Shown here in pieces: positions 1-40,458 of a DNA stretch of 64,000 bases. The stretch covers positions 1 to 64,000 of the forward strand of contig NBIV01000053.1 in assembly GCA_003194525.1 (NCBI GenBank), given 5' to 3'. The notes below the pieces were generated by a model, which saw nothing but the letters and a program-made list of their open reading frames with translations, was not told where the DNA came from and did no database searches. The position numbers and the translations under genes were made by a program. Position 1 is the stretch's first letter. Every line of letters starts with the position of its first letter. Source of the DNA: Gracilariopsis chorda. Lineage: Eukaryota > Rhodophyta > Florideophyceae > Gracilariales > Gracilariaceae.

Positions 1-1355
1 GGATCTGTATTGAGGAAGAGGTGTTCCCGAGGGACGGTGCATCTCGGGCAAGGGTGCTGCGGCGTGTTCCGTGGGAGATGGCGAGGATGTCCTTTGCTTC
101 GGGGATGTCTGCGCAATAGCTGGCGAGGATGGGGTGGCAGTGGCGGAGGACACCGTGAGCGTCACGGAAGGAGAATCCTGGGAGCGCAGAGGTGAGGAGT
201 GGGTTGAGGATGGTAGAGATGGCGCGCTGAATGAGGTTCATTTTGGTCTCGCGTGGGATGTTGGAGGATGATTTCGGGACGTAGTCGCCGCCGTCGTCGA
301 AGGCGGTAAACGGGGAGAAGGAGGTTGGAAGGTATCCGAGGAGTGTGAGATTTTCGGATATACACTTTCGGCGGAGGGCATCGGAGAAGTTGAGAAACGT
401 GACGTGGAGGGGGTAGGAATTGACGGAGGAGCTTTTCAGGGAGGTTGCGGACTTGTCCGTGTAGAGCTGGACGAGGCCGATGAATGATTCGATACCGGTT
501 TCCTGGGGGGTGTGCCAGACGATGTCATCGACGGGGGACTGCATAATTTCCTGTTTGATGGCTGGGACGACTTTCTTTCCGAGGGCTGCAGCCATGGGAT
601 GTGCGAAAGCCGAAGTGACCAGAAGACGAAGAAGATAGGAAGATTGAGATACCGGCTGGAAGAAGGTGTTGTTGAGGTGTGCGAGTGCGAGTTGTTGCTT
701 GAGGACGTCGATGGCACGTTTCTGGAAGAGGGTTGCGGAGAAGTGTTGCGCTTGTCTGTGATGGTGGAAGGGATGAAGCCGTTGGAGCTGATGCGTTGCT
801 TGAAGAGGTCCTCTTGCAGTGCGAGGCACTGCCTGGCGGAGGAGATGGAGGTCTGGAAGGAGGACTTGGAGAAGTCTGGATGGTTGAGGATGGAGATGAG
901 CTCGTCTGCTTTGCGGGTGCTGACGGAGGATGCGATGGAGGAGATGTAGAGGACGAGTTGTTCGAGATGAGGGTTGTCGGCGAGAGGGGAAGGGGAACGA
1001 GAAGGGGGCGGGAGAAGGGGTTTGAGGAGGAGACGGAGCCGATGGCGTGACTTGCGATATGGTAAGCGTCTTGGGTTTGAAGAGAGAGGGAAGCCTGTTG
1101 AAGTTCATATGGATCATCATCGGCGAGGGGGACGTTGTCGGAAGGACGGTGAGAGGGAAGGGGAGGAGAATTGATGGAGAGGTTGGGAACGGATTTTCGC
1201 TTCTTGGTCCTGGGAGGGAACTGAACTGGAGCGGTGGCTGTGGAGGAGGAACGCTTGTTGGCGGTGAGGCGATGGGGGCACCTGCGTTGGTGACTCTGAA
1301 GAGAGTATGTGGTGCGGCCGTGGAAGGAGCAGCGAGGGTAGCAACAGGGGAACAT
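1..1355 (-). pseudogene. Tnp2/Plavaka-like DNA transposase, frameshifted, truncated by window edge
   Basis: Read on the minus strand from a methionine at 1355, the product opens with a zinc-finger-like segment (C-x3-C-x12-H-x4-C, about 1347-1275). A Ser/Pro-rich linker follows. Readable coding then continues in three further frames, changing near 1020, 750 and 62. Recognisable segments are a helical stretch around 900-780, one near 690-560 (LAHLNNTFFQPVSQ), one from 540 to 240 (DIVWHTPQETGIESF, PLHVTFLNFSDALRRKC), and one at 145-20 reading CHPILASYCADIPEAKD followed by PCPRCTV. The order CHP...ADIPE...G...CP-x-C is the pattern I know from Tnp2/Plavaka-type (CACTA superfamily) transposases. 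The catalytic core would lie beyond the left edge. Several frame changes with conserved protein on both sides mean this is a decayed copy; introns could explain one or two. Terminal inverted repeats were not found. Confidence 0.6.
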
Positions 1356-1899
1356 GGTGCGGGAAGGAGAGTTGAAGGATTGGAAGGAGAAAGGGGAGCA
1401 AAGGGGTTGTTGGAGAGCGAAATGCGGGAGCGTAATTATTATGGCGCACGGGGATGAAGTGGAGCAGGTGATGCCGAGCGTTTTGCGCTGGCTCGTGGAC
1501 TGGTGCATGCTATGCAAGGCCGCAGACACTGACAACGAGTGAAGGATAGCGAGGGCTATCATGTTTTGTAAACTCTAATGTATTTCCTATATATGTATTT
1601 ATCTGAGCATCCTATCCTTCTATTTGAAGGGGCAGTTCCGGTGGTCCGGTCAGATTTTCAATCTCACGTTCACATGTGAAGGTATGTAGTAGTGGAGTCT
1701 GGACTCCACTTCGCGGAGTCCGGACTCGGTTTTTGGTCCGAAATAACTTGGAAATGTGAAGTGCTTTACTAGTTTATACTTTCAAAAAACTAGCAGTGTT
1801 GAATGTGTGAAAATATTTTGATGGAAATTGATTCATTCAAAAGTGGGTTTTAAGAGTCGATATCCGTCCATTTCAATTCTTTCCCTTTTGATTGTCAAA
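1356..1899. other. Non-coding spacer before Ty3 element 1
   Basis: No ORF here has recognisable content. The stretch is AT-richer than both flanks and holds the palindromic cluster at 1694-1727. It shows no similarity by eye to the 3' LTR of the neighbouring Ty3 element, so the 5' LTR that might be expected here is absent. Confidence 0.5.
1694..1727. repeat. Palindrome pair (gagtc-type hairpin)
   Basis: Two almost identical 13-14 bp palindromes, ggagtctggactcc (1694-1707) and ggagtccggactc (1715-1727), lie 7 bp apart. Each is (nearly) self-complementary, and the pair can also form one larger stem with a single mismatch and a 7-nt loop. It sits between the transposase remnant and Ty3 element 1 and may be a terminal hairpin of a mobile element or a transcript terminator; neither can be shown. 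Confidence 0.6.
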
Positions 1900-2369
1900 C
1901 TAGCATTCCGAAAACACCGACGCAGCTCCGAGTTCCCCCAGGAATGGTCCGCAACGGAACGCCGCAGCGGCGAGATCACGAAGGTACGTTCCGGAACAAC
2001 TACTTACCGATGCCGTCGGTCTGGAATCCCAAGGAATCCCATCGGCAACCTCGGTGCCTCGAGCCGTGACAGCTGTGGCCACTACGCCACCTCCGGTGGT
2101 CGAAACGCCGTCGGCTGTCCCCCCGAGACCCGGGTCGCCTAAGTACCATCTCCTCGAGTCGAGAATCGACATTGCCAATGTGGCCCACGCCTCCCTCTCG
2201 CAGCAAGTTACCGAGTTGGAAGGGCGATGGAGTGACTCCCTGGCTCGGGATTATTCGGGAGATATTCGTCTCCTGAGAGCTGATGTGAATTCCATTCTGG
2301 AGTGTCTGGGTACTCCGGCTGCCTTCGTAGAAGGATATCGGGAGTTCGTGGAGGAAGTTAAAAACCCAT

Positions 2370-3956
2370 ATGATGCGGGTAACCGGACGTATGGACACGC
2401 TGGAAGCGTTGCTCAGAGAAGACCTGAACGCTCCGAGACAAGAGGAAGTGAAGGTCATCTCAACCCAACACCGCTCCAGTCACCTCCCCCGTCACCCTGG
2501 AAAGAGAGTTCATCGTTATGAAGTTTCGTCAAGTTCCGACTCGGAAACAAGTTCGAGTAGCTCGCCTTCGAGATCATCGCGTGAAGGGAGAGGCCGCCGT
2601 CGCGGAGAAGAACCTAGTTCGAGGGCTACCTACACCTCCCATGGAGCAATCCGTGCGCGGGAGAAAGGTCGCCGTCATCTCGGCTTGAAGGAATTGAAAC
2701 CGACGAATCCCCTTTACAGGAAGCTGTTGTCCTATCGTTATTACCGATTGGAAGACTCTTCGGGCACTCGAAGTTCGAGAGACACCGGTCGGGTGAAGGA
2801 TCTCATACGTCGTATGAATGTGACGATGCTTAAGCAGAAGTTCTCCGGTGAAGATCCGATCCTCGTGTTGGATTTCCTGGCCCGCTTTGTGCAGGAAGCA
2901 GACGTACTCGAAATGAGTGAGGCGCAGGCATACGTTGCGTTGCCCTACTTTCTTTCAGGAATGGCTGAAGATCAGTACAACTCGGTCAGGGGTTCGTCCA
3001 GGGCCTCAGAAGGAGGTGTTACGTGCTGGCCCGAGGCTGTACACTACCTGCTCAGGTCGTACGCGACGGGAACTGCAATCAGTCAAGCCATCGTGGCGGT
3101 TCGCGATACGAAACAGAAGCCTGGTGAAACGGAAACGTCGTATTCAACTCGCTTGAATAAAGCGTTTCATCGTTTTGGAAATGTGTTTACCGCTTTTGAG
3201 CGTTGCTCCATGCTGGTGGATGGTTTAGATCCTGGTATCAGGGCACTGGTGTCCCGCTACAGGGAAGAGAAGCGCAAGGCGACGTATCTGGAACTGGTCC
3301 AGTACGCGCAGGCTGAGGGTGACACCCTCAGAGCGAGAGACCCGCGGCGTCGGTCGTCGAAGGCTCTCTTCGTCGAGAACGAGACTTCCTCGGCATCTCT
3401 CCCTAACCCGGGACCACCTTCCGGATTTGCGGATAACATCCAGTATCTTGGCAGTCTTGAACAGTCGTTGGCAACCTCGGAACTGCCGTCCACGGTTACA
3501 CCCCCCGTGGTAGATCCGGCCTTTTACGCAAACCCCGGTCGGGTTCCCCCAGCCCCGCTAACCTACGCGTCGAGCGCCACAAGACACTCCCGCCCGGGAT
3601 GGTCCAACCCGAAGCAACTAGCACTCCAACCACAACACCCTCAGCACCGCGGAATGATGTCCCACGCCACCGGAACACGTTCAGCCCCGCTGATTTGCTA
3701 CATTTGTTACCTTGAAGGTCATACTGCGTCGCAGTGTACCCTCCCCATTCGCGAGATGTGGAAGATCGTGGGAAATTATGAGAATCTCCGACCGGAGCAT
3801 AAGGCTCGTGTCCCGAGTAATTCGTATGAAGACGCAAAGGCTGCGGTCCACAATGCTCAAGCTCGAGAAGCCTCGAAAACCGCGAACGGTAACAACCCTA
3901 ACCTTTCGGAACGGGCTCAGCCGCACCCAGCGGTCGATTCGGTCCCGAAAAACTAA
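2370..3956 (+). CDS. gag: Ty3 element 1 gag (capsid/nucleocapsid), main open part
   Basis: This 528-codon frame holds the main body of gag. A Ser/Arg-rich N-terminal part leads into a helical capsid-like region (roughly residues 145-320) with the Ty3 gag-type sequence DPILVLDFLARFVQEAD and a conserved CWPEAVHYLLRSY. A retroviral-type zinc knuckle, C-x2-C-x4-H-x4-C (CYICYLEGHTASQC), lies near residues 443-456, as expected for nucleocapsid. The N-terminal gag sequence homologous to element 2 begins further upstream, near 1.94 kb. The end overlaps the protease frame (3712-4929), a layout consistent with the programmed shift between gag and pol that this group uses. Identification rests on position, the zinc knuckle and similarity to element 2. 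Confidence 0.75.
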   Translation: MMRVTGRMDTLEALLREDLNAPRQEEVKVISTQHRSSHLPRHPGKRVHRYEVSSSSDSETSSSSSPSRSSREGRGRRRGEEPSSRATYTSHGAIRAREKGRRHLGLKELKPTNPLYRKLLSYRYYRLEDSSGTRSSRDTGRVKDLIRRMNVTMLKQKFSGEDPILVLDFLARFVQEADVLEMSEAQAYVALPYFLSGMAEDQYNSVRGSSRASEGGVTCWPEAVHYLLRSYATGTAISQAIVAVRDTKQKPGETETSYSTRLNKAFHRFGNVFTAFERCSMLVDGLDPGIRALVSRYREEKRKATYLELVQYAQAEGDTLRARDPRRRSSKALFVENETSSASLPNPGPPSGFADNIQYLGSLEQSLATSELPSTVTPPVVDPAFYANPGRVPPAPLTYASSATRHSRPGWSNPKQLALQPQHPQHRGMMSHATGTRSAPLICYICYLEGHTASQCTLPIREMWKIVGNYENLRPEHKARVPSNSYEDAKAAVHNAQAREASKTANGNNPNLSERAQPHPAVDSVPKN

Positions 3957-4929
3957 TCTTGGGAGTCTCCCCACGGGAGGGGTGTCTTCCAAGCCGAAGT
4001 TGAAGACGCCTGAGGCGCCACCGCTTCGCTCCCCTGCCAAAATCCTTACGAGGAAACTGGCTCAAGAAGACGTGAGCTCGGACCACTTAGTGGCTCTGCG
4101 TCGTCCGTGGATACGGTCCCGTAACCTCCGCATCCCGGATCGAGTTTTGGTAATGGCCAAGAGGAACTATAAAGTTTATAGTGACCTCGGTCTCTCTAAC
4201 CAGTTCATGGTTCGTCAGTTATCTGTCCTGGATACAGGTGCCGCTCCGAACCTGATCAATATCGGGATTATTCCACCCGCCATGCGGAAATGCATTCGCA
4301 TTGGTCCAAGTCTGGATCTGGCGGACGCTAATAACAACCCGCTCCAGACTCTGGGAACAATTCCTCTGGTACTCAGACTAGGCACCTACGTGGTGAAGTT
4401 GGACTTCATCGTATGCGACTCTCTTGCTGCACCGGTCATCCTCGGTTGTGATTTCTGTGACCGCTTCGTGGAAGCCATCCGCCCTCGCTCCAGATCCGTG
4501 GAATTGGCCAACGGTTCGACCATCCCGATTGTACGGAAGCCCTTGCGACACGCCTCCCGTAAACGGGTACCTTTACCTGCTGCTCAGGAAGCGTCCAATG
4601 TGGATCGAGCATCTACGAAGATTCGCGTCGCGGAACCAGTTTCGATCCCGAAGGAATCTCAGGTGTGGGTCTCAGTAACATCCAAACACCACGGGTTGCA
4701 GGTTGTTCAACCGCTCCCCTCGCTCTACGAACAGCGCCGTCTCGCATTAGCAAATGGGATCGTATCCGTAGAGCCGGACAAACCCTTTAAGGTTCTCGTT
4801 GCTAACCTCGGAACTACCACTCAGTGGTTGGTTAAAAAACCAGGTCCTGGGCAACATGCTTCCGCATCCGTTGGCTATCCTTCCTACAAAGATTCCGATA
4901 TCCGACGTTCTCGGAATACAAGACCCTAA
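3712..4929 (+). CDS. pro: Ty3 element 1 protease frame
   Basis: The frame overlaps the end of gag and the start of the RT frame. It contains a retropepsin signature, SVLDTGAAPNLI, around 4226-4260, followed by a flap-like region and the typical second motif VILGCDFCDRF (around 4437-4470) of the pepsin fold. The equivalent region of element 2 reads SVLDTGVAPNLI and VILGCDFCDGF at matching positions. It would cleave the Gag and Gag-Pol polyproteins inside the virus-like particle. The first part of the frame, before about 3960, is probably the other reading of gag rather than protein. A polypurine-like tract lies at its end (4927-4943). Confidence 0.75.
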   Translation: MKVILRRSVPSPFARCGRSWEIMRISDRSIRLVSRVIRMKTQRLRSTMLKLEKPRKPRTVTTLTFRNGLSRTQRSIRSRKTNLGSLPTGGVSSKPKLKTPEAPPLRSPAKILTRKLAQEDVSSDHLVALRRPWIRSRNLRIPDRVLVMAKRNYKVYSDLGLSNQFMVRQLSVLDTGAAPNLINIGIIPPAMRKCIRIGPSLDLADANNNPLQTLGTIPLVLRLGTYVVKLDFIVCDSLAAPVILGCDFCDRFVEAIRPRSRSVELANGSTIPIVRKPLRHASRKRVPLPAAQEASNVDRASTKIRVAEPVSIPKESQVWVSVTSKHHGLQVVQPLPSLYEQRRLALANGIVSVEPDKPFKVLVANLGTTTQWLVKKPGPGQHASASVGYPSYKDSDIRRSRNTRP

Positions 4930-7900
4930 GGAGGGGGAGGAGGTCCCGTTCGTTCCGTTGGATCCCGCCCGGGAAAGTTCAGATTCGACTGTCGAAGAAG
5001 CTCAGAAGAGCACGACTTCAGCATCTGCAGATACTGCGTTAGACCCAGAACAGGCTTTGGATAAGTTGGACCTGGATCAAATTAATGAATCTCATCGTGA
5101 GAAGTTTCGTGACATGCTCAGGGACTTTACCGCCATGTGGGACGGTTCCCTGGGGACGATAGGGGTAACCGAACATCAGATTGATTTGTTGCTGGATACA
5201 CGGCCTATTGCACAGCACCCGTATCAGGTAGGCCCTAAAGCAAGGGGGGAAGAGAAATCTCAGGTGGAGAAGATGCTGCGAGCTGGAGTTATCGAAGCAG
5301 CACAATCCCCTTGGGCTTCTCCTGTTGTCCTTGTTCCGAAAGCCGATGGATCATGGCGTTTCTGTGTGGATTACCGCCGCCTGAATGCGGTTACTGTCAA
5401 GGACGTCTATCCGATTCCACGAATGGACGAGTACATTGACTCCCTGGGGAGCGCAACGGTGTTCACTACCCTCGATGCCAATTCGGGATACTGGCAGGTC
5501 CCTATTAGGAAAGAAGATCGTGACAAGACCGCGTTTGTGTGCCATCAAGGACTATATCGCTTTAAGCGAATGCCATTTGGACTAACGAATGCCCCAGCTA
5601 CATTCCAACGGGCAATCGATATCCTCTTGGCGAGGTTCAAATGGACCAGCTGTCTGGTATACTTGGACGACATTATAGTGTTCTCCAATAACTTGGACGA
5701 TCACCTGTCCCATTTCCGGGAAGTCTTGACAGTGCTCCGCAACGCGGGCATCACCCTGAAGCTGGGAAAGTGTGAGTTCTGCGCCGATTCGGTAAAATAT
5801 CTGGGGCACATCATCCGCCCCGGACAGCTTTCAATCGATGAAGCAAGAGTGAAATCACTTCGAGAGGCGAAACATCCGACTAATCAAACGGAGCTTCGAT
5901 CCTTCCTAGGACTTTGCAATGTATATCGCCGATTCGTCCCGAACTTCGCCGACTTGTCAGCACCGCTTAACGCACTCCTCCGGAAAGGACAACCTACCGA
6001 ACTGGACGTCTTTGACGAGGCTGAGTCGTCAGCATTCTCGTCTCTTGTCGACGCTGTAACGTCCCCGCCAGTTCTGGCCTTACCGCACCCGGACTTACCC
6101 TTCGAAGTGGATACTGACTCAAGTGCCCACCAGGTGGGTTGTGCGTTGTTTCAAGTCACGGAAGAAGGAGAAAGACATCCGATCGGATATTGGTCACGTT
6201 CGTTGAACGTTCACGAGCGCAACTACTCGGTGTCCGAGAAGGAGTGTCTTGCTGTTGTTTGGGCGTTGGCGACGCTTCGCCCATACCTTATGGGTAACCA
6301 TTTCAAGGTTCACACCGATCACTCGGCTCTCCGTTGGCTACTCGAAATTCGAGAACCGTCGGACCGCCTCATGCGTTGGCGTCTCCGACTCTCGGAATTT
6401 ACATTTGATGTCCTCTACAAGAAGGGATCCCTGAATACTCAGGCTGACGCCCTTTCGCGCTTAGGAACATCAGCGGAAACCGAACCTGTCGACGATCTGG
6501 AAATACCATGTTTCATGGCACAATCCCCGGAGGGAACGGAAGAAGACGACCCAGACGTGAATGGGGATGACATCTGTGACGATATTCTAGCTGCAAACCC
6601 TACGGATCCTCCGGATGACCAGGTTGTTCCCATATCCTCTGAGGAAATGATCCGTGAACAACAGCAGGATCCTTTCTGTGCCCAGATTCGTGCCCGTCTT
6701 AACGGGGGCGCACAGATACCCTTTGCGGTGAACGATCGAGGCTACCTAGTCAGGTTGCTGACACGGACCCCACAGATCGTTGTACCTCACACGCTGCAGC
6801 AGCGCGTCTTGCATCTATCGCATTACGCGAAGTTGGGTGCACATCCCGGCGGGAGGAAACTATACCTGACCCTTCGCAGGGACTTCTATTGGCCTGCTAT
6901 GGCATTTGACTGCTATGCAGTTCGCCGCTCGTGCGTGGAATGTGCGAAGAATAATGTAAAACTTCGGAAGTACTCGAAGAAGTTAACACTATTCCCGGCA
7001 CGGGCGCCACTCGAATATGTCGCTATTGATATCTTGGGCGAGCTTGTCAAAACCAAACGTGGTTACAAGTATCTTCTCGTCATTACTGACCGCTTCTCAA
7101 AGTTGGTGAGAACAGTACCGCTTAAACGGATTACCGCGGACGTGGTTGCGCGTGCGTTCGTAACCCACTGGGTCTTTAATTACGGCTCGCCGGTACATCT
7201 ACTCTCCGACAACGGATCTCAATTTACCTCAAAGTTCTTTCAGGACGTATGTAGAATCTTGGGAATCAAGAATATGTTTACTACCACCTACCACCCGCAG
7301 TGTAACGGACAAGTGGAACGATTCAATCGTACTATGTTCAACGCACTGCGCGCGTATGTCGCGGATCACCCCATGGAATGGGACTTGTACACGGACGCTA
7401 TTACGTACGCGTATAACACCCAGGTACACCGGGTCACGACCCTCGCTCCATTTGAGCTGGTCCTGTCTCGGATTCCGCCACCCATGGCTATTGAAGCGCA
7501 ACCGAACGTCTCGGGGTACCCTTCGACAAGGTTATATCGAGATTCCTGGAAGGAATGGTTGAAGAACATGGTCCCTACCGCCCGAAAGGCTATGGGAAAA
7601 GCCCAGGAGGCATACAAACAGAACTTCGACGCGAAGATTCGTACCCCCATACCCCAGGTCTCGGAAGGGGATTCTGTCTTCCTGCGAAAGGAATATTATA
7701 ATCCCGAAAAGGAGAAGCGCCACAAGTTGTCACCGATAGTGAATGGACCCTATCGGGTGGTTTCCGTCGCCGACGACACAGTCGTACTGGACATCGATAA
7801 CCAGTTCGAACGCGTCTCACGCGACCGCGTAGCCCACGCGCCTGCGCCCCCTGAGGGCTCATCACCGCTCGTGACAATCCCGGAGGATGACCTCGTAACT

Positions 7901-8374
7901 CCGCCAACGGATAATCTGCTTCCGTCCCGCCCACCCGTCTTACCGCACCCGGAACGGGGACTCTCGGATCTTCCGATTGCCGATCAACCGGTTGAGCGCG
8001 CCGCGCGTATCGTGAAACGCACGCTTGACCCCAAACGCCTAACCGTTACTCCGCCCGCGGAGGTCCTTCAGCCTGAACCCACCCCCCTCTCACCTAAGGA
8101 GGGGGAGGGACGGGAATCGATCGCGCCATCGCGGAAGGAAGCTCCGGCGTCGGACGGTGTCCCGTTTCATACGGCATCGTCGGATGAGCACCCCCGGAGC
8201 AGGGAGGAGTTGAACGCATCTCGAAGCGAGAAGGCCGTCTCCGCGGACCCGGATGCACTCCTGTCGAGCGAGTCGCTGGGTAGCGAAGGAGGAAGTAGTG
8301 AACCGGACTCGGTGTGGTCACTAATGTGGCGAATGATATCTCCGAGCACGGAGCACATACAACCTCGGTCATAA
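4799..8374 (+). CDS. pol: Ty3 element 1 RT-RNase H-integrase
   Basis: One uninterrupted 1191-codon frame. Reverse transcriptase shows FCVDYRRLNAVTVKD near residue 190, LDANSGYWQVPI, RMPFGLTNAPATFQ and the catalytic YLDD at 5660-5671 (residues 288-291). RNase H follows with VDTDSSAHQVGCALF, YSVSEKECLAVVWAL and HTDHSALRWLL. Integrase has the H-H-C-C zinc module (HLSHYAKLGAHPGGRKL ... CVECAKN, about residues 675-720), then a D-D-E core with AIDILGEL, LLSDNGSQF and NGQVERFNR. The tail is Pro/Ser/Glu-rich and carries no chromodomain; that lies in a separate ORF downstream. A second polypurine-like tract sits inside the tail coding sequence (8095-8110). Family assignment is secure by motif order (RT-RH-IN). 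Confidence 0.92.
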   Translation: MLTSELPLSGWLKNQVLGNMLPHPLAILPTKIPISDVLGIQDPKEGEEVPFVPLDPARESSDSTVEEAQKSTTSASADTALDPEQALDKLDLDQINESHREKFRDMLRDFTAMWDGSLGTIGVTEHQIDLLLDTRPIAQHPYQVGPKARGEEKSQVEKMLRAGVIEAAQSPWASPVVLVPKADGSWRFCVDYRRLNAVTVKDVYPIPRMDEYIDSLGSATVFTTLDANSGYWQVPIRKEDRDKTAFVCHQGLYRFKRMPFGLTNAPATFQRAIDILLARFKWTSCLVYLDDIIVFSNNLDDHLSHFREVLTVLRNAGITLKLGKCEFCADSVKYLGHIIRPGQLSIDEARVKSLREAKHPTNQTELRSFLGLCNVYRRFVPNFADLSAPLNALLRKGQPTELDVFDEAESSAFSSLVDAVTSPPVLALPHPDLPFEVDTDSSAHQVGCALFQVTEEGERHPIGYWSRSLNVHERNYSVSEKECLAVVWALATLRPYLMGNHFKVHTDHSALRWLLEIREPSDRLMRWRLRLSEFTFDVLYKKGSLNTQADALSRLGTSAETEPVDDLEIPCFMAQSPEGTEEDDPDVNGDDICDDILAANPTDPPDDQVVPISSEEMIREQQQDPFCAQIRARLNGGAQIPFAVNDRGYLVRLLTRTPQIVVPHTLQQRVLHLSHYAKLGAHPGGRKLYLTLRRDFYWPAMAFDCYAVRRSCVECAKNNVKLRKYSKKLTLFPARAPLEYVAIDILGELVKTKRGYKYLLVITDRFSKLVRTVPLKRITADVVARAFVTHWVFNYGSPVHLLSDNGSQFTSKFFQDVCRILGIKNMFTTTYHPQCNGQVERFNRTMFNALRAYVADHPMEWDLYTDAITYAYNTQVHRVTTLAPFELVLSRIPPPMAIEAQPNVSGYPSTRLYRDSWKEWLKNMVPTARKAMGKAQEAYKQNFDAKIRTPIPQVSEGDSVFLRKEYYNPEKEKRHKLSPIVNGPYRVVSVADDTVVLDIDNQFERVSRDRVAHAPAPPEGSSPLVTIPEDDLVTPPTDNLLPSRPPVLPHPERGLSDLPIADQPVERAARIVKRTLDPKRLTVTPPAEVLQPEPTPLSPKEGEGRESIAPSRKEAPASDGVPFHTASSDEHPRSREELNASRSEKAVSADPDALLSSESLGSEGGSSEPDSVWSLMWRMISPSTEHIQPRS
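4927..4943 (+). other. Internal polypurine tract copy 1 (element 1)
   Basis: taaggagggggaggagg repeats the core of the true polypurine tract at the 3' LTR (11377-11390). Element 2 has the same purine tract at the matching place (46988-47001 on its strand), so its position is conserved in the family. It could act as an extra plus-strand priming site, like the central tracts of some retroviruses; this role is inferred. Confidence 0.6.
8095..8110 (+). other. Internal polypurine tract copy 2 (element 1)
   Basis: taaggagggggaggga lies within the end of the pol frame. Element 2 has the equivalent tract at 43822-43838. With the 4927 copy and the one at the LTR edge, the element carries three copies of one purine motif. 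Confidence 0.6.
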
Positions 8375-8817
8375 CCAGTTTCGTGGTGAGCTGAAAAGCA
8401 ACCGCGGACACGGAGAGTGTGGTTGACACTGCGTGCGTTACCGCAGAGCCCCACAAATGGACACTGTGACGCCACTGTCACGCGGACGAAGCCCGAAGTT
8501 CCAAACCGTGGAAAGGTGTACACGTACATACCGCCGGCCGGCGTCAGGAGTACAGTCAAGACCCGCGTCGTGGAAAGACCGCGTGCGACACTTGCCGCCA
8601 GCGGCCAGCCAATCACAGTGTGTGATGCATGGCAATCCGCCTCCTGGCGTCGGAACCGTAGTGAACCGCCTCCCTCACCGTGAACGGTCAAACTCACCAG
8701 AGTTGCACGGGTCGCGTGGGAGAAGAGCTCGCGAGCTGCGAGTCAATAGGGGAATCCGGTTAGAACGGAAGGCCCCCCCCCCCCACAAGGAGAGGATTAG
8801 GAAGCGGAAAGACCGCA
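8375..8817 (+). other. Spacer between integrase and chromodomain ORFs (element 1)
   Basis: About 440 bp lie between the pol stop and the chromodomain ORF. I see no recognised coding content. A run of about thirteen C lies near 8771-8784. Element 2 has a spacer of similar length (42936-43452) at the same place, so the gap is a family trait; an intron joining pol to the chromodomain is one possible reading. Confidence 0.5.
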
Positions 8818-9162
8818 ATGCGGTATCAAGTCCCAGCACTCGCAGCGTCGAGGAAAGCTGACTTTGCCCGCAGGGTCGCGCCAATTTCAGGCAAGTCCCC
8901 TCACAGGGTTCTCCCCTTAAGCCCTGCCATGACGGGTCAGGAGCCGGCTACGTACGACCAGGAGTTTGTCGTTGACCACATCGTGGATCATGTTCTGGAC
9001 TCCAAAGGAGTGTGGTTTTACCAAATCCGATGGTACGGATACCCCCCGGAAGAGGACACATGGGAGCCCATTCAGCACCTTCCTCGTTCCAAGGTGATAA
9101 CCTACCACCGCCGGACGCGGTTCCCACTCCCATCCACTTTGGACATGGCCCAGGTTGGGTAG
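8818..9162 (+). CDS. Ty3 element 1 separate chromodomain ORF
   Basis: A 114-codon frame encodes a chromodomain over about residues 47-98: FVVDHIVDHVLD, WFYQIRWYGYPPEEDTWEP and IQHLP. The aromatic positions (F, W/Y, W) and the W-x-G-Y...E-x-x-T-W-E-P core are those of the fold that binds methylated histone H3 tails. In chromoviruses this domain is normally fused to the end of integrase and steers insertion into heterochromatin. Here it is a separate ORF beyond the pol stop. Element 2 carries the same domain, also detached, at 42636-42935. Expression may need splicing or an internal start. The first 40 residues are not recognisable and the true start is uncertain. Confidence 0.8.
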   Translation: MRYQVPALAASRKADFARRVAPISGKSPHRVLPLSPAMTGQEPATYDQEFVVDHIVDHVLDSKGVWFYQIRWYGYPPEEDTWEPIQHLPRSKVITYHRRTRFPLPSTLDMAQVG

Positions 9163-9498
9163 GACGATACACTGCACTATGCAGAAGATTCCGAAGACGG
9201 AAGAGAAGTCTCCGAAGAGAAGAGGACACAGGAAGAGATCTGGCTACAGAAGGTTACACGAAGTAATGGACTGGATAGGGAAACCAATGGTCATTGGACG
9301 TCACACCGCCTAGCGGTCCGACCGAAGTAACGGTTTAATGAAGAATACCGCTTGGCGGTCCAGCATGAAGATGCTATGAAGAAGAAAAAGAAGAGTCCGG
9401 ACATACGGATATAGAAGAAGGAAGTCGTTTACCACAAGCTATGGAGCGTTAAGCGCTAACCTATATCAGGTGTGCGTGCCACGGTCCAGGATCCTGAC

Positions 9499-11214
9499 TT
9501 AGGATGAGCCGCTCGTTGGCGGTTGGTAGTTCGCAGACGCGAAAGCCAATAACTCGCTCACGCTGGTGAGGTTGGAAGGCGCAACCACTCCAATAGACTG
9601 GAGGTGAGCCCTGAGGGCAACGGCCTGAGGGTCCACGGGGACCGGAGATGCGGTAGACGGAGAAGCAGCCGCACTGGCGGCCATATTCCAGCCATCTGGA
9701 GCAGCCACATGCTGGCCGGATCCGTCGAGATCGTTGACCATCGCCGTTACCGGAGCTACGGCCTCCTCCACCTCATCGGGGTCGTCATCCACCATTGGAT
9801 CATCCTCGTAGGAACCGTGCCAGTCATCGGAAAACATGAACCCAACCGGGTGGCCTCGTGGAACGGAGCGTGGTACATCGCGTAACGCTAGCGCGTGAGC
9901 CCGTGAAGTCACGGATACCTCCCAAGGGTCATAGAAGACGAAGTTGCCAGCGTTTGGATTTCTCCGGCCTGGAGAGCGATCATGCCTGGAAGGCTCACCG
10001 TCAGGGACGTTGGAGACTGGGACTGTATCCCAGTTAACCATATCGATGGTGTTCAGAAGGCACTGAAGCTCATCCACATTGGCTTCGGATTCCAGAGGGA
10101 TATAGAGATCCAATCGGCGGATAACCTGGCGTAGGTGCGGAGGAATGTAGCACAGACGGTTCTTGTCGTACACCTCCCAGAGGAGAAACGCGGCAACGCG
10201 AGCAGCCCATTCGGCGAGGAAGAGAGTCCAGTAACCGGAATCCGGATTGTTGATTAATCGTGAACCGATGTAGCTGAGGCACGGAGGCATCTCCGCAAAG
10301 CATCCCCTTGGGACTTCGAACCTGCTCCACAAATGGGGAAGAGGTGCATACCGGCCGCGCATCGCGGATGGACGGAGCCTCTCGACCTCGAGATTTTGGT
10401 ATGGTACCAGGAACCCGAAGCGGGAGCGCGCCTTTCGCTCAAACCGGAGTCGGTCGAAGAAGGATCCGCGATGATTCCGACGACGAAGATATCGGAACTC
10501 TGCACGCAGAATTGGGCGCCTCCAGAGGAGCATCCCGGCTTCTATTGGAGTGGACCGGAACGGTGTAGATGGCTGGTAGGCAGCAAGGTTCTCGCAGTAT
10601 GAGACTTCACCGTAGGTACGGTACCGCGAGAGGTCAAAGCTGTATTCCGTTGGTATCAGCTCATCCGGATAACTCGCGCGGGCGAGACGGTCGTAGGCGA
10701 CCTTGGCCATCCCGGCACGGGCGTCATTCAGCGTCTCGAAACCATATCTGGTGCGCTTCCGTGCGAGGAACTGTGGCTCTACCGCGATACGCGTCCTCCA
10801 GTCGAAGGAGTCGACCAAATCCCGGCCTAGTCCCCCTGGGAGCTCGCCCTCCTCCACATAGGAGTCGATGAGGTCCGAGTCGGAAACCCATGTGGGGTGG
10901 AACCAGGGCGCACGCGAAAAGAGGAGAGCGTCTTCCCGGGGATTGCGGGCCCAAAGTGTCGATGGTGACACCCAGCCGACGGCGGTCGCAGTGATCGGTA
11001 TCGCTTGAGCGCAATTCCAGGCGGCGATACTCGCGGCATCCGAGGCATCCAAGGTTGGAACATGAGACGATCCTCCAGGCAGAGGCAAGGAGAGGAACCC
11101 AGAGGTTGGGTGACGAACCCACGACCCCGGCGTCGCGAAGGATGGTTGTCCGCTCGCGGAAGTCCCCTGCGGGGCGCCCGCAGGCGGGTTGCTCGAAAAC
11201 GGAGTGTTGGTCAT
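9499..11214 (-). CDS. Conserved antisense ORF of Ty3 element 1, unknown function
   Basis: This frame is on the strand opposite to gag-pol, between the chromodomain ORF and the 3' LTR. It is open from 11400, but I place the start at the Met at 11214 (571 aa): the upstream part would begin in the LTR, and a TATA-like box lies about 100 bp before 11214. Element 2 has a homologous product in the same place and orientation (40492-42315), alike over almost its full length. Shared motifs include FSRAPW.HPT, DLIDSYVE/ELIDSYVE, ERKARSRFG, EVPRGC.AE.PPC, SGYW, AEWAARVA, YIPP.LR, DRSPGR, AGNFV.YDPWE and GHP.GF.F. I recognise no known domain, signal peptide or membrane span. The N-terminus is Pro/Ser-rich and the C-terminus Ala/Pro-rich. 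It is not env-like by eye. A structural or regulatory accessory protein is conceivable. Confidence 0.75.
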   Translation of the reverse strand: MTNTPFSSNPPAGAPQGTSASGQPSFATPGSWVRHPTSGFLSLPLPGGSSHVPTLDASDAASIAAWNCAQAIPITATAVGWVSPSTLWARNPREDALLFSRAPWFHPTWVSDSDLIDSYVEEGELPGGLGRDLVDSFDWRTRIAVEPQFLARKRTRYGFETLNDARAGMAKVAYDRLARASYPDELIPTEYSFDLSRYRTYGEVSYCENLAAYQPSTPFRSTPIEAGMLLWRRPILRAEFRYLRRRNHRGSFFDRLRFERKARSRFGFLVPYQNLEVERLRPSAMRGRYAPLPHLWSRFEVPRGCFAEMPPCLSYIGSRLINNPDSGYWTLFLAEWAARVAAFLLWEVYDKNRLCYIPPHLRQVIRRLDLYIPLESEANVDELQCLLNTIDMVNWDTVPVSNVPDGEPSRHDRSPGRRNPNAGNFVFYDPWEVSVTSRAHALALRDVPRSVPRGHPVGFMFSDDWHGSYEDDPMVDDDPDEVEEAVAPVTAMVNDLDGSGQHVAAPDGWNMAASAAASPSTASPVPVDPQAVALRAHLQSIGVVAPSNLTSVSELLAFASANYQPPTSGSS

Positions 11215-11317
11215 AGTAGAGAGGGGCGCAGAGTCTGTTGAAGAAGGTACTGAGGGTTGATCAGTTGTAACCGTGTTGGTACGGGGGACCGGTATCTCGG
11301 CGATTCCCTTGTCGGGA

Positions 11318-11326
11318 CTATTTATA
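11318..11326 (-). promoter_or_regulatory. TATA-like box for the antisense ORF (element 1)
   Basis: On the minus strand the sequence reads tataaatag, about 100 bp before the proposed start at 11214 and about 65 bp inside the 3' LTR edge. Element 2 has tatatatag at the equivalent place (40459-40467). Conservation of a TATA-like box in both copies supports separate transcription of the antisense gene. Confidence 0.5.
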
Positions 11327-11375
11327 CCCTCGCGCCTCATCTCCTCACGCCTATACTCACGTTCGTTTTCGGCCC

Positions 11376-11390
11376 TTAAGGAGGGGGATG
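11376..11390 (+). other. Polypurine tract of Ty3 element 1
   Basis: ttaaggagggggatg directly abuts the 3' LTR start at 11391, the expected place of plus-strand priming. It matches the tract of element 2 (40395-40412 on its own strand). Confidence 0.85.
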
Positions 11391-12305
11391 TGTAGTGCAA
11401 TACATTCCCGCGTACGGGCGATGGTGAAACTCATATCTGAGGTGTACTCGGTGCGAGCGATGAAGCGGGATGCATGAATTTTAGCCCCCGTTTACCGGGC
11501 TAATTGGCGGTCGGGTTACCCAGGGTGGTTATGGGAACATTCATATTTTGTGGTACCTGCCTGGCAAGGGTGGTGGACACGTGGCTACAGCCCCGGCCAG
11601 GAGGCCCAAAACGGCTACTTGTTTTAGTATAGTTTAGGGGTTAATTTTACTTAGGCTAGTGCACTACCTACTGTACTGCACTGAGCTAGTACTTGAGCGT
11701 CGGCCGCACGGCGGCGAGCTCACCAAGAAAAGTAACAAGAGTTCGGCTCTGACTCTATTCGCCATGCGAAGTGTCTAACTCCTCGCGGAGGTACACCGCT
11801 TGCCCGGTAGTTTCACCCGACTCGCACCACCGAGGAGACCGTGCTCGTCGTACCCAGTGGGTTGTGACCACTCGTGGTATTCATTGTTGTCGTGTGACCG
11901 CCCGTACAGGCCCTATCTCCGCCCCAGTTTTGGGTATTGATATTACCGACGTGTGTCGTGAGACCGTGAGACCATCTCTTCCCCTCATATCCCCTAACCA
12001 CCGCGCGGTGCGTGTTCGTGTGTGTGTATCGGCACCCCCCCCTCCGGGGTCTGTTCCCGCTTTCCGCACGCCCCCGTCGGGTGGTCCCTTTCCCTCTTTT
12101 GTTCCCCTGTTCGCAGGCTACTTCCGGACCAGCCGTGGTTCCGACCCGTTCTAACCCCTAAACCTCCGAGGTACATCCAGGCTCCCGACGGAGTTACACC
12201 CGTCATACGGGACACGGAGGGCTCTACCCAGCTGGGCCTACCTCTCCAAGAGAGCAAGGCTTCGAGCTGCCTTGGGTGCCTTTCCCACACCGGGATTGCA
12301 CCACA
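11391..12305 (+). repeat. 3' LTR of Ty3 element 1
   Basis: The LTR starts tgtagtgcaat right after the polypurine tract and ends attgcaccaca, giving TG...CA ends that are imperfect inverted repeats of each other; length is about 915 bp. No second copy occurs in the window. Its start resembles that of the element 2 LTR only in position, so the two elements have diverged in their LTRs more than in pol. Confidence 0.75.
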
Positions 12306-14962: not shown

Positions 14963-15369
14963 TCCAGGGGAAGAACTCTGGAAGAAGGAGGCAACCTCAG
15001 TAAGACTTCTGAGGTCTTTGTGCCTGTTCATTTTCCCTGTCAGACTGCAACACGGTCGGCACTCACTTGCGTAGCGTACCCGGGCAACAGTGATGCGCAT
15101 GTTCGACAGCTAAATGGCTTGAATTCCGTGCTTTAGCAATTGGTGCAGGGTGATCTGCAAACCTGTTGGAAGATGTCAAAAAGATGAATGTGACAGAAGT
15201 GGGGAGGAGGAAACGCTGCATAGCTACTTTTTGTCACGGTGGATATTATTGCTGTATCGATTGGTAAGGTGATCTACCAGGCCACACATAAAGCTGGCCT
15301 TAGTTCTCCTTGACTGTTCCGTCGGAAAAACAGACGCCCACTATTAGCGTGAAGGGCGAAGCGGTATGT

Positions 15370-15774
15370 TGTTAAGTACTGGAGTACGGTTCTGAAAAGA
15401 ACGAAAACGGCAGGCAATACGGTGAAAGATGCCACGAAAAGGGTGCAAATGCTGTAGTGACGAGCTCGGGGGAACAACAGTGGGTACACTCAACGAGAGT
15501 TCCCTCCTCTCCTCAGTGGCCATCCGAGAAGTCGAATGGCCTTTATAAGCACCCGCCGAGTCAGTTGACACTGACTCGACCAAACGATAGCTTGCGCAGC
15601 CTGACGTGGGCTATTGAAGATACAAGATATTGCTATCATCGCGCAACCAATACAATTAAGTATGGTATGCTCTATCGCAATGCTGAACGCATTTGCGCAG
15701 AAGACAGTAGACGTGGCACATTTGCAAGCCTATTTCTGCGACAGACGCGTAATCGCTGGCTGTATTATACAACA
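15370..15774 (-). repeat. 3' LTR of Ty3 element 3
   Basis: 405 bp with TG...CA ends, identical by eye to 20474-20878. On the element strand it holds a TATA-like tataaag (15541-15547). Confidence 0.9.
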
Positions 15775-15814
15775 ACGCCCCGTAATTAAGTAGGTGACAA
15801 CCACACTTGATTAC

Positions 15815-16135
15815 TCAGAGATGGTCAGCGATAGCGCGTTTTCGTGGAGTTCCCGCTGTAGATACTTCCGTCAGGTACTCTTGTACCATAGCTGGAACGT
15901 CCTGTTGCAGAGACTCAACAGAAACCCAATCAGTCTCGTCGACGGTAAAACCACGCCACTTTACCAATACTTCCGTAGTTCCTTTCTGCCTTCTTAGATC
16001 AAGGAAGCGATCTATTACAAGTAGTTCGCCTTGTCGATACGCAAGATGGCCCAGTAGTTCTTCTGTGACTTCAAAATCCTTATTACGAAAAAAAGTCAGA
16101 CGAAGACCATGAACCTCCATTTTCGATCCATCCAC
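15815..16135 (-). CDS. Ty3 element 3 chromodomain region
   Basis: This frame encodes the end of the integrase tail (EVTEELLGHLAY) followed directly by a chromodomain: GELLVIDRFLDLR, TEVLVKWRGF and DETDWVSVESLQQDVPAMV. The domain is close to the integrase end, as is usual for chromoviruses, in contrast to elements 1 and 2. Residues 16160-16570 on the same strand carry the rest of the integrase C-terminal part (NSSLHRLGNRCPLTVFTGH; GDFVLRG). The type with LLGHLAY in front of the chromodomain is one I associate with protist and early-fungal Ty3 elements, which is a weak clue to the host. Confidence 0.75.
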   Translation of the reverse strand: MDGSKMEVHGLRLTFFRNKDFEVTEELLGHLAYRQGELLVIDRFLDLRRQKGTTEVLVKWRGFTVDETDWVSVESLQQDVPAMVQEYLTEVSTAGTPRKRAIADHL

Positions 16136-16576
16136 GAGAGACTTGATGAGAAAGATGTATCAAGACCGGCATTTTGTGACACAGTATGGGCCAAGCCACT
16201 TTAAAGACGGCTTACGAGTGTCATCGCGTTGTTGAACCCCGCGCAAAACAAAGTCCCCTTCGGTAAAATTAATAGGACGGACATTAGTCTTTCGATTGTG
16301 ATGGTCGACTGCTTGTCTACGTTTTTTGCCAGATCGGACTGCGACATCCTTATGCATGTTGTTCAATTCGCACTGCATATCTTCAATTTGTCTCAGCTGC
16401 AGTCGTCGTACGTCATCAATGTTGAGAACTTTTGTCTTCTTACCTATCCTGCGCGTGATTGCAGTCATAGGAGAGTCTTGTTTGTGACCAGTGAAGACTG
16501 TCAAAGGGCATCGGTTCCCAAGACGATGCAGCGACGAATTGTTGAGTGCGGACTGAACAACCGGCAAAACGCTGGG

Positions 16577-19500
16577 CTAGCAGCTGTGGGGAAGTTGGTG
16601 TTCTGAAAGCAGCGCACGACATGTCCGCAGCAGCTCTCGACACACAAATTCCACCGTTCCATTCGACCAAGGACAGTACGCAAGTGTAAAGTGATGAGAT
16701 GACTTTGTCTTATCTTGCAAAAATCTGATAACTTCGTTCTTGAAATGTGAACCTCTATCAGATACCCACTTTTGTACCACGCCAAAAGCGGCAAACCATT
16801 GGATCATTGCGTTTGCGACGACTTCCGCAGTGGTCTTGGTAGCTGGTGTGAGCCATACGTATCCGCTATGATCGTCCTTAAATACTAAAACGTACAGGAA
16901 CTCATCTTCACCGGGAGACATGTAGCAGAAATCAAAATGCAGGAGTTCATTTGGTTCATTTGCATGCAGGGCGTGGCCCAGGGGACGTGGAATAATCTTA
17001 CCAGACTGTGTGCAAAGGCAATGAAGGCAAGATTCAACAAACGTCTTCACGTTATGGTCCATACCCTTCCAGTAAAAATGAGCCTTAACTGCGGTGGCAG
17101 TTACATTGAAAGCTCTATGACCGCCATGACCAGTGTGCGCTGCAATGAGTATTCGCAACTTTAGTAGATCTTCATCACTCGGGATCCAAAAGGCACCCTT
17201 CCAGTTCTGAACGCCTTCATTGGTAGTCGTGAACCCAGTTCGCAGTGACTCGGCGGAGCGTTCCTGTGCCTGCCGAATGTCCTTCAAAGTTGGCCAGTCA
17301 AATTTTGAGTCTACTCCTGGATTAATGGGTGCGTACATCAAGGCCATGGCGCGTGGAACGTATACAGCGCGTACTGCAAAACTGGGTCTCACAGCCCACC
17401 AGGTCAACATATCTGCCCAAACGTTTCTTTCTCCGGGTAAATGCTCCACAACGTATCTAAATGCGCTTAATTTGATTGCCCAACGCATTAATTTGCTTGC
17501 TGTGTGTCTTGCCATTCCTGGATTGCGTCCGTAAAGGTCGAAAAGATATACCAGATTAGCGTGATCGGTGAAGATATTTACTTCATGGCCCAGAACGAGG
17601 TAGTCTAATCGACACATTGCTTCTACGATTGCGTAGCCTTCCTTCTTTGGAACGGACCAGTTGACTGCTGATGCTGAGAATGCTCCAGAAAGGAAACAGA
17701 CGGGCTCGTGTGGTTGTTCCTCGATAATTTTGTTCCGATCTTTGTACGGAACCTGGGTGAGAATGGCTGCCCAGTGAGTCTCTGAGGCATCTGTGAAGAG
17801 ACATAGGATGTGCTTGAATTTCGGGTACGCAAGCTTGACCGAAGCGGCTAATTGATTTTTGATGTCAGCGAAAGCTGAGTCATGTGTGGCGCCCCATGAG
17901 GTGCTGAAGGAAAGGTTGCGAACTGCTTGCTTGGTTCTCTTACCGACTTTGGAATAACATTCCTCGAGTAGAGCGTGCAGCGGAGCAATTCGCTCGTCGT
18001 AGGCAGGGATTGCGTTACTCATCCAGTTCGTAGCGCATACGAACTGTTGGAGTTCACTTGCCATTGTGTGGGTCTTCATGGACACCAATGTGCTGAAATG
18101 TCGTGGATGATACTCTATACCTTGTGCCGAAATGATCCTTCCGCAGAACTGGACCTGGTGTGCAAATAGAGTTGACTTCTCTGCATGTATCTTGAGTCCT
18201 ATTTCGTTGCAGACAACAAGGAAAGATTGGATATTGTTGAGCAGCTCTTCTTCGTTGTTCGCGTAGAAGAGAAAATCATCTATCCATTGAAGCATCTTGT
18301 CGACGCGTCCGTCGAATTTTTCAGACAATACTGCTTGGAAGTGATTTCCGGAGTCACTACCACCTTTTTGAAGACGTTTGGAGGAGTATACGCCCAGTGG
18401 AGTTTGAATCGACATCATTTCATGTGATTCCGGAGACAGAGGAACTTGCCAATAGCCATGCGCTAGGTCGATATTGGCGAAGCAAGTGCTTCCTGAAATA
18501 TCCTGGAACTTGGACTCAAGGTGTGGCATTGCGGACTGAATCGGTATGGTGCGTGCGTTGGGTCCGCGCAGATCCACAGTGAACCTTAGTTTGGTAGGTC
18601 CGGGCTTCGGCACTGCAAGGGCAGGCGAGGCCCAACGAGCGGAAGGGTTTTTGTATATGGCACCAACGGCCTCTAATTCTCGAATCGTATGGATGATAAA
18701 ATCCCGTTGCTGCGGTGCATAATGACGTTGGGGAGATCTATATGGCTTAGAATTCTCAGTAGCAGTGATTCTAAGCGGAAGAACATCGACAGGTGGGTCC
18801 GATCCGAGTTTGATTCTAAACACGGCGCGGTATTCTTCAAGCATTTCAGCGAGCCTCTGGGATCCTTTCTGAGATATGCCGTTTGAAGTTGCTTCCTTGG
18901 TGATTTGAATGAATGCTTTGTCGATAGACTCCTTGCTATCCTTGCCGATCCCGGCAGCCAGGCATTCCGGTAACTCGATGGGATCATCGTCGGCAGCCAT
19001 GTACGACAAACCCCGATACTTGGCAGTAGCGAGTTTAATTTGTTCGGTGTTAATGTCGAACAAATGTTTGTTGTGGATTCTGTCCCTTATCTGGACCAAG
19101 TGGTCTTTCAAGTTAAATCCAATGGAGTTAAGGAAAGGTCTACCAAGTAGTATTTCGTCCATGTCGCGATCTACAACGTAGAATTCAATACCACGTACCC
19201 TAACAGGAATGTTAGAACCAGGAAGGAAGATGGTGACTGTGAGAAGTGCCGTTTTGGACGCAGTGGCGATTGCAGAACCCTTTGATTTGAAAGCCCCTTC
19301 AAGGGTCAGTGGAGTTGGCAAAGCCTTGACTCTGATATCTTGAACCGCAGCTTGTACCTTGTCGAACGTCTTCGCATCGATTGCGCTAAAATCTGCGCCA
19401 GAGTCTCCAAGAACTGTTTCAAACACAGTGTCTTCCAAGGCTACCCTGAAACGTCCTTCATTTCCGTCCGGGCCTTTTGTCCTAACGTTCGATACACCTG

Positions 19501-19891
19501 TAACCGTCTTGGCTTTGTTAGTCTTCTTATTTTCATAATGCTTCTCGAAAAGTTCCTTCTTTTTCTCGGGAGAGGTAAAGTGACAGTCCTTTAGACGATG
19601 AACACCGTCACAGTCCTCATTAAGACACGGCTTATTCCATTCTGTGTCTCTCCGCTTACTGGTACGACGGTTTGACACCGCAGGATCTGCGTTACGTGTT
19701 ATCTCCGGTTTTCCGGTACCAAAACCTTTGTTGTTTGCTTTGCTGCGTTCACGAAAACTACGGCTTTTACGTGGGTTAACACGTGCTCGTGCAGTTTCCG
19801 TCAGGGCAAATTCGAGAGCGATGTTGGATACCTCATCTCTGAAGAGCTTGATACTCGCAAGCTGTTCTTTTTTCCATGCCCTGCTCATCAT
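16577..19891 (-). CDS. pol: Ty3 element 3 gag end-protease-RT-RNase H-integrase frame
   Basis: An open 1104-codon frame. Order: basic linker with a Cys/His knuckle-like CLNEDCDGVHRLKDC (about residues 85-100); protease with TVLGDSGADFSAI and EILLGRPFLNSIGF; RT with RFTVDLRGPNART, NIDLAHGYWQVPL and a catalytic segment WIDDFLFYA; RNase H with CLFTDASETHWAAIL, KKEGYAIVEA and FTDHANLVYL; integrase with the H-H-C-C module (HTGHGGHRAF ... CLHCLCTQ) and a core with HFDFCYM, WVSDRGSHFKN and WSNGTVEFV. The RT catalytic box is I-D-D instead of the Y/V-x-D-D usual in Ty3; this is a lineage feature rather than proof of damage. Product would be the Pol polyprotein of a reverse-transcribing particle. Confidence 0.88.
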   Translation of the reverse strand: MMSRAWKKEQLASIKLFRDEVSNIALEFALTETARARVNPRKSRSFRERSKANNKGFGTGKPEITRNADPAVSNRRTSKRRDTEWNKPCLNEDCDGVHRLKDCHFTSPEKKKELFEKHYENKKTNKAKTVTGVSNVRTKGPDGNEGRFRVALEDTVFETVLGDSGADFSAIDAKTFDKVQAAVQDIRVKALPTPLTLEGAFKSKGSAIATASKTALLTVTIFLPGSNIPVRVRGIEFYVVDRDMDEILLGRPFLNSIGFNLKDHLVQIRDRIHNKHLFDINTEQIKLATAKYRGLSYMAADDDPIELPECLAAGIGKDSKESIDKAFIQITKEATSNGISQKGSQRLAEMLEEYRAVFRIKLGSDPPVDVLPLRITATENSKPYRSPQRHYAPQQRDFIIHTIRELEAVGAIYKNPSARWASPALAVPKPGPTKLRFTVDLRGPNARTIPIQSAMPHLESKFQDISGSTCFANIDLAHGYWQVPLSPESHEMMSIQTPLGVYSSKRLQKGGSDSGNHFQAVLSEKFDGRVDKMLQWIDDFLFYANNEEELLNNIQSFLVVCNEIGLKIHAEKSTLFAHQVQFCGRIISAQGIEYHPRHFSTLVSMKTHTMASELQQFVCATNWMSNAIPAYDERIAPLHALLEECYSKVGKRTKQAVRNLSFSTSWGATHDSAFADIKNQLAASVKLAYPKFKHILCLFTDASETHWAAILTQVPYKDRNKIIEEQPHEPVCFLSGAFSASAVNWSVPKKEGYAIVEAMCRLDYLVLGHEVNIFTDHANLVYLFDLYGRNPGMARHTASKLMRWAIKLSAFRYVVEHLPGERNVWADMLTWWAVRPSFAVRAVYVPRAMALMYAPINPGVDSKFDWPTLKDIRQAQERSAESLRTGFTTTNEGVQNWKGAFWIPSDEDLLKLRILIAAHTGHGGHRAFNVTATAVKAHFYWKGMDHNVKTFVESCLHCLCTQSGKIIPRPLGHALHANEPNELLHFDFCYMSPGEDEFLYVLVFKDDHSGYVWLTPATKTTAEVVANAMIQWFAAFGVVQKWVSDRGSHFKNEVIRFLQDKTKSSHHFTLAYCPWSNGTVEFVCRELLRTCRALLSEHQLPHSC

Positions 19892-20473: not shown

Positions 20474-20878
20474 TGTTAAGTACTGGAGTACGGTTCTGAA
20501 AAGAACGAAAACGGCAGGCAATACGGTGAAAGATGCCACGAAAAGGGTGCAAATGCTGTAGTGACGAGCTCGGGGGAACAACAGTGGGTACACTCAACGA
20601 GAGTTCCCTCCTCTCCTCAGTGGCCATCCGAGAAGTCGAATGGCCTTTATAAGCACCCGCCGAGTCAGTTGACACTGACTCGACCAAACGATAGCTTGCG
20701 CAGCCTGACGTGGGCTATTGAAGATACAAGATATTGCTATCATCGCGCAACCAATACAATTAAGTATGGTATGCTCTATCGCAATGCTGAACGCATTTGC
20801 GCAGAAGACAGTAGACGTGGCACATTTGCAAGCCTATTTCTGCGACAGACGCGTAATCGCTGGCTGTATTATACAACA
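20474..20878 (-). repeat. 5' LTR of Ty3 element 3
   Basis: 405 bp, TG...CA, identical by eye to the 15370-15774 copy. TATA-like tataaag on the element strand at 20645-20651. Confidence 0.9.
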
Positions 20879-40394: not shown

Positions 40395-40412
40395 CATCTC
40401 CCCCTCCTTAAG
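40395..40412 (-). other. Polypurine tract of Ty3 element 2
   Basis: On the element strand cttaaggagggggagatg abuts the 3' LTR, matching the element 1 tract at 11376-11390. Confidence 0.85.
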
Positions 40413-40458
40413 CCGGGAAAGCCACACCGCGACGCGGGATTTCACGTGACGCGAAAGC

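Follow-up and report, generated by a model that had tools for sequence, protein, structure and literature searches.

The antisense ORF and its host element

Element 1, a 5'-truncated Ty3/gypsy element, occupies positions 1923..12305 (plus strand) of the window, that is, the whole 64,000-nucleotide stretch of Gracilariopsis chorda DNA analyzed here; its boundaries were delineated by comparison with genomic copies. The element encompasses a gag-like ORF (2370..3956, plus strand; 528 aa) that has no Pfam match and is homologous to the corresponding ORF of element 2 (see below), a pol ORF (4856..8374, plus strand) with reverse transcriptase, RNase H and integrase domains, and a chromodomain ORF (8764..9162, plus strand; PF00385, E 6e-11) that, in this copy, is separate from the pol ORF. 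In these elements, the chromodomain follows the integrase, as in the chromoviruses among Ty3/gypsy elements. The 3' LTR (11389..12305, plus strand; 917 bp) is recognizable by its TG...CA ends and by the polypurine tract that adjoins it (11375..11388, plus strand), a similar tract being present in element 2; in 29 of the 29 other genomic copies that were compared with element 1 (L002-L030), the match ends at 12305-12310. At the 5' side, 38 of the 40 best genomic matches to positions 1200..2400 stop at ~1922-1932, and because the sequence up to ~1922 belongs to a different, abundant repeat, the start of the element was placed at ~1923, with the 5' LTR lost. Elsewhere in the genome, the family of element 1 is represented by a copy (contig C375) surrounded by LTR matches ~10.5 kb apart. 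The junction between the repeat and the truncated element (window positions 1200-2400) recurs with 99% identity at G000:C976:8932-10135, suggesting either duplication of the composite or a repeat in the assembly.

Between the chromodomain ORF on one side and the 3' LTR on the other, antisense to gag-pol, lies an intact ORF (hereinafter aORF, antisense accessory gene) encoding 571 aa from the likelier start methionine (9499..11214, minus strand) and 613 aa from the first ATG (9499..11340, minus strand); the frame has no stop codon across positions 9499..11430, or 643 codons. The ORF reported at this place by the sequence-only reading is thus confirmed, including its length of 571 aa. The methionine at 11214 appears to be the likelier start: the ATG at 11340 is located upstream of the candidate TATA box described below and is probably not used, and the similarity to the protein P0001 begins near 11214 (from 11193 in element 1), which fits the shorter product. 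Several copies from other families share the context GMQPFHTNP at the downstream methionine. The chromodomain ORF of element 1 is split from pol across window positions 8374-8764, and the open integrase frame of this copy comprises 1,200 codons; in 14 of the 150 best integrase matches in the genome, the frame is open for 1,490 codons. Judging from these frames, the pol copy of element 1 looks broken while its aORF does not.

Related and unrelated elements in the window

Element 2 (39440..51207, minus strand) belongs to a related family and is flanked by LTRs at 39440..40394 and 50253..51207 (delineated by BLAST, ends approximate) that are 98.0% identical by BLAST. It carries a broken copy of the aORF (40482..42315, plus strand), whose reading frame is displaced by a tandem duplication of 19 bp (40686..40723) and interrupted by an in-frame TAG near 41155; the longest ORF starting from an ATG encodes 364 aa. 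The products of the two aORFs are 48% identical over 530 aligned columns. The counterpart noted earlier in element 2 is, accordingly, homologous and in the same place and orientation, but it is not a single open ORF. The sequence following the 5' LTR, AGTGGTCTCCCG, is common to a family A copy (L030) and element 2, so that the primer tRNA is apparently the same for family A and the element 2 family. Both ends of element 2 are bordered by an array of 21-bp tandem repeats (window positions 39216-39439 and 51210-51271), which suggests that the element inserted into the array.

Element 3 (15359..20878, minus strand) is another Ty3/gypsy element, with LTRs of 416 bp that are 99.3% identical; it contains no ORF of at least 150 aa besides pol, indicating that the aORF is not part of every Ty3 element in this genome. 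The rest of the window includes a tandem array of 3.8 copies of a 68-bp unit (36788-37044) and two ORFs, at 53229-54305 and 32028-34151, that are probably pieces of Helitrons, given the Helitron-like N-terminal and PIF1-like helicase domains recognized in them.

A candidate promoter of the aORF

A candidate TATA box, TATAAATAG, is located 112 nt upstream of the ATG at 11214 in element 1 (11318..11326, minus strand). Its equivalent in element 2 (40460..40468, plus strand) reads TATATATAG, as it does in locus L036, and in L037-L039 the candidate box is TATAAATAT. In all these cases (element 1, element 2 and L036-L039, representing families A, B and C), a TATAWAW motif is found 52-63 nt inside the LTR edge; the probability of finding such a motif in 120 nt by chance is ~0.8-0.9% per family, with three families tested. 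No TATA match was detected in L042-L045 (10 regions were scanned; L032 and L041 gave no region). We infer from these motifs that the aORF is likely to be transcribed from a TATA promoter of its own, just inside the edge of the 3' LTR.

Purifying selection on the aORF

The aORFs of elements 1 and 2 were compared in a single protein-guided alignment of 499 codons, a procedure that somewhat favors the observed identity. The differences are distributed as 193, 143 and 323 among codon positions 1, 2 and 3, respectively (chi-square P 9e-18). There is one stop codon in the aORF frame, compared with 17-31 in the other five frames, and dN is 0.46 against dS of 2.2, although the resulting dN/dS of ~0.2 is only rough because dS is near saturation. 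When the observed substitutions were randomly redealt over sites with the same base (1000 shuffles), amino acid identity averaged 0.286 and reached at most 0.337, compared with the observed value of 0.511, and the number of stop codons averaged 13.7 with a minimum of 4. The pattern extends to nine copies from four families (element 2 included), in which the aORF frame has dN of 0.46-0.52, dS of 1.9-3.2 in eight copies and saturated in one, and 0-2 stop codons versus 16-38 in the other five frames.

The same pair of elements provides yardsticks: dN is 0.35 for gag (dS saturated), 0.22 for pol (ratio 0.08) and 0.32 for the chromodomain ORF (ratio 0.17). The aORF protein thus evolves somewhat faster than those encoded by gag, the chromodomain ORF and pol; with dN of 0.46, its conservation is of the kind seen in the other genes of the element, a defining property of the antisense accessory ORFs discussed below. 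Between families, the aORF is under purifying selection, and the earlier proposal of a selected accessory gene is borne out by the codon-position bias, by dN far below dS and by the shuffle test. That proposal had come with the caveat that protein similarity no greater than DNA similarity, combined with a lack of codon-position bias, would speak against selection. The amino acid identity, 51.1%, is in fact slightly below the DNA identity of 56.0%, but the codon-position bias is strong and the random expectation for amino acid identity is 29%, so that only one half of this combination is observed.

Variation was also tallied within the young family A. Variants found in single copies look neutral (84 synonymous, 177 non-synonymous and 12 stops, ratio 0.91; 49 copies, some partial). 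Variants shared by 2-4 copies include 24 synonymous and 33 non-synonymous changes without stops (ratio 0.63; 57 variants), and those shared by at least 5 copies include 5 synonymous and 17 non-synonymous changes, also without stops (ratio 1.35; 22 variants). Clear constraint is not seen among the shared variants of these 49 copies, some of them partial.

A protein family with a confidently predicted core

Relatives of the aORF protein were sought among 5.8 billion proteins, with 8000 candidates scored per search. Among the candidates scored, 18 database relatives were identified, at 27-66% identity, none of which has either a Pfam domain or a name that points to a function. Both relatives with a named species are red-algal, one from Gracilariopsis chorda and one from Agarophyton chilense. 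Pattern-based scans of viral contigs (46 stretches) and genome contigs (22 stretches) yielded no confirmed relative. In the phylogenetic tree, the element 1 protein and P0001 group together (support 99/96), outside the clade to which element 2 belongs. Among the 75 places in this genome listed for P0001, the identity is 51-59%; lacking a close copy among these, P0001 comes from another species, and the two aORF lineages probably split before those species did, with horizontal transfer as the alternative.

No known family was matched by the aORF protein, whether among protein families or in the PDB, at a significant level, and a comparison with the gag and pol of the element itself produced no profile match (E 0.34 and 0.33). 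The model obtained with AlphaFold from 20 sequences (mean pLDDT 73, pTM 0.67) predicts a mostly unordered N-terminus (residues 1-79), a core (residues 81-460, with pLDDT of at least 85 in 29 of its 38 ten-residue blocks), an acidic stretch that is mostly unordered (the region 460-523) and a C-terminal pair of helices. Modeled alone, the core piece 197-462 reaches a mean pLDDT of 86 and pTM of 0.88. Foldseek searches of the PDB and BFVD with the aORF model returned nothing significant, which in itself is not proof of a new fold. The core is only slightly basic (46 K+R versus 43 D+E in residues 111-440), and no DNA-binding domain was recognized in the protein. Profile HMM search and structure prediction, two of the checks proposed when the ORF was first noticed, agree with the initial impression that it has no recognizable domain. 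The aORF thus encodes a family of proteins whose globular core is predicted with confidence and for which no known relative was detected; within the reach of the searches, the protein is new, as are its predicted fold and the lineage that hosts it.

Distribution and fixed location across the genome

Four protein searches of the genome (91.3 Mb, 1081 contigs) allowed at least 192 different places with an aORF to be typed, a number that includes fragments. Among the best 150 integrase (rve) matches, 70 are within 5 kb of one of the 192 places, and in 69 of these 70, the integrase is downstream of the aORF, on the opposite strand, 1.8-2.5 kb away. Divided by protein search, the 69 comprise 48 near 72 places, 8 near 41, none near 22 and 13 near 57. 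The remaining match lies upstream of an aORF on contig C536 that has a downstream opposite-strand match of its own. The group of 22 in this breakdown consists of places of the P0003 type: none of the 150 best rve matches falls within 5 kb of them, so that little of their surroundings is seen. Of the 79 loci examined for a chromodomain, some of which overlap, 58 carry both genes, and in all 58 the chromodomain lies 3' of the aORF and in the opposite orientation; the remaining 21 are trimmed to the ORF itself or run into the end of a contig. Thus, the place and orientation of the aORF are fixed wherever the flank is readable, and several families carry the gene. In family A, 61 of the 75 matches listed have no in-frame stop (three of these matches are short pieces, and frameshifts were not counted). 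The Gracilariopsis chorda protein BWQ96_10156 matches the genome at 99% identity over residues 88-565.

Four aORF copies of the element 2 type are spaced 6,017-6,020 bp apart at G000:C15:286500-305645 (L032-L035), with L033-L035 being 99.0-99.9% identical to L032 over 4,092 bp, which points to a tandem array of element pieces; judged by eye, the flank of L032 includes part of a family A LTR. A separate group of integrase matches with equal scores and an open frame of 1,560 codons (e.g., G000:C53:252835, C100:67026, C230:85564 and C414:7937) has no listed aORF within 5 kb, and these possibly represent a related family that lacks the gene.

What the aORF might do

The existence of the aORF as a gene is well supported; its function is what we infer. 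The explanation that we favor, with a probability of roughly 0.55 for the whole, is that the aORF is a conserved antisense accessory gene of red-algal Ty3/gypsy chromodomain elements that has its own promoter and encodes a regulatory product. Antisense transcription would start at the TATA promoter of the gene, independently of the 5' LTR, so that expression of the aORF could continue while the sense strand is silent. Somewhat less certainly, the product would be a regulator with a probable nuclear location that acts on the DNA, RNA or chromatin of the element itself and might counter silencing, tune the expression of gag-pol or influence integration, and not an envelope protein or an enzyme of the virion. 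The regulatory role, the less certain part of this explanation, is suggested by the analogy with gene23 of Grande and by the placement of the gene. Speaking against the explanation are the four loci without a TATA match (L042-L045), the failure to recognize a DNA-binding domain, the only slightly basic core, and the shared variants of family A, among which constraint is not clear. Only tentatively do we extend the proposal to an old, apparently red-algal-specific family with a previously unseen fold that serves as an anti-silencing or self-regulatory factor in trans, is made from its own promoter and arose independently of TRP28 and gene23.

An unlikely alternative is that the product helps in structure or replication and travels with the particle, for example as a chaperone, an assembly factor or a second capsid-like protein. 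Such a role would agree with nearly gag-like conservation (dN 0.46 versus 0.35), with the large, well-predicted core and with the presence of the gene in several families; structural proteins, however, are normally made from the sense RNA, from which the antisense place and the candidate TATA box would uncouple the aORF, and neither the profile comparison with gag and pol nor Foldseek gave a match. Being large, well predicted and unrelated to the gag and pol of the element, the protein could instead be the product of a host gene that was captured and serves a cellular function, or of a host gene family spread by elements. We consider this quite improbable given that all 18 relatives found (8000 candidates scored per search) are devoid of a Pfam domain or functional name, that the scans of the 46 viral and 22 genome stretches confirmed no relative, and that the chromodomain lies beside the aORF in every one of the 58 loci with enough flank.

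It is also conceivable that what matters is the antisense transcript, through double-stranded RNA or interference control of gag-pol, rather than a protein, and non-coding antisense transcripts have been reported for other retroelements (PMC7264820). Function of the RNA alone, however, would not keep the protein, and with dN far below dS and one stop codon where 13.7 are expected, this explanation is largely refuted as the sole function and very unlikely, even if the transcript may act additionally. Hardly more can be said for a separate mobile element, such as a decayed DNA transposon, nested in the ancestral element: the opposite orientation and the candidate promoter would fit, but neither element 1 nor element 2 contains long flanking inverted repeats (only short imperfect pairs of 14-22 nt), no transposase domain was found, and the place of the aORF is fixed in the readable loci, although its remote origin could still be of this kind. 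Finally, an unselected frame that is open by chance would account for the neutral appearance of the family A singletons (0.91), which is also what decay after insertion is expected to produce, but it is refuted by the codon pattern and by database homologs at 27-66% identity, and can be effectively dismissed.

Comparison with known antisense and accessory genes of LTR elements

The third ORFs of bdelloid rotifer LTR elements resemble the aORF in being lineage-specific additions to gag and pol; some of them are recognizable as env, GDSL lipase or DEDDy exonuclease, and others contain coiled-coil or transmembrane segments (PMC5408684). Unlike these, the red-algal aORF is antisense and without a match to a known domain. 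The orientation of the aORF also departs from that of an env-like third ORF, which would be in the sense orientation after pol. Compared by description, HBZ of HTLV-1 and related antisense retroviral genes likewise have a regulatory role and lie antisense near the 3' end of their LTR elements (PMC11963269, PMC7264820); the HTLV antisense promoter is described as located inside the 3' LTR, whereas the red-algal candidate TATA box falls in the internal region, close to the edge of the LTR.

A closer parallel is TRP28 (Transposase_28, PF04195) of the plant Retand elements, which is likewise antisense, located between pol and the 3' LTR, and lineage-wide (PMC11963269); its function is thought to be regulatory, and it is reported only in flowering plants (PMC11963269). 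Retand is a non-chromovirus (PMC11963269), whereas the red-algal elements carry a chromodomain. The identity of the aORF product with TRP28 was examined with HMMER and rejected, with no PF04195 match in 20 distinct proteins, a search whose reach ends short of a remote relation.

By its place and orientation, the red-algal aORF belongs to a known class of accessory ORFs that run antisense between pol and the 3' LTR (aORF-3R), described for maize Grande (gene23), rice RIRE2, Silene Retand, PvRetro13 and fungal Boty (PMC7264820); the plant cases mentioned in the sequence-only reading are thus real, and Boty adds a fungal one (PMC7264820). The red-algal gene shares with this class its position, antisense orientation and conservation comparable to that of other element proteins; those elements are from flowering plants and a fungus, whereas here the carriers are red-algal chromodomain elements. 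The gene23 of Grande is antisense, has a promoter upstream of it and encodes a protein found in the nucleus (PMC7264820, PMC11963269); in the red-algal aORF, the counterpart of that promoter would be the candidate TATA box. The red-algal protein appears to be unrelated to those of gene23 and Boty.

Antisense accessory genes have been described in plants for years, with roles that are still not determined (PMC7264820), and the red-algal aORF represents a further, apparently unrelated case in this unsolved class. Its comparative record is rich, with at least 192 places in one genome, 18 database relatives, a well-predicted core and a definable candidate promoter. If the lack of relatedness holds, the question of function is open to test through expression, localization and structure, and this position antisense to gag-pol, next to the 3' LTR, would have been used repeatedly and independently by LTR elements.
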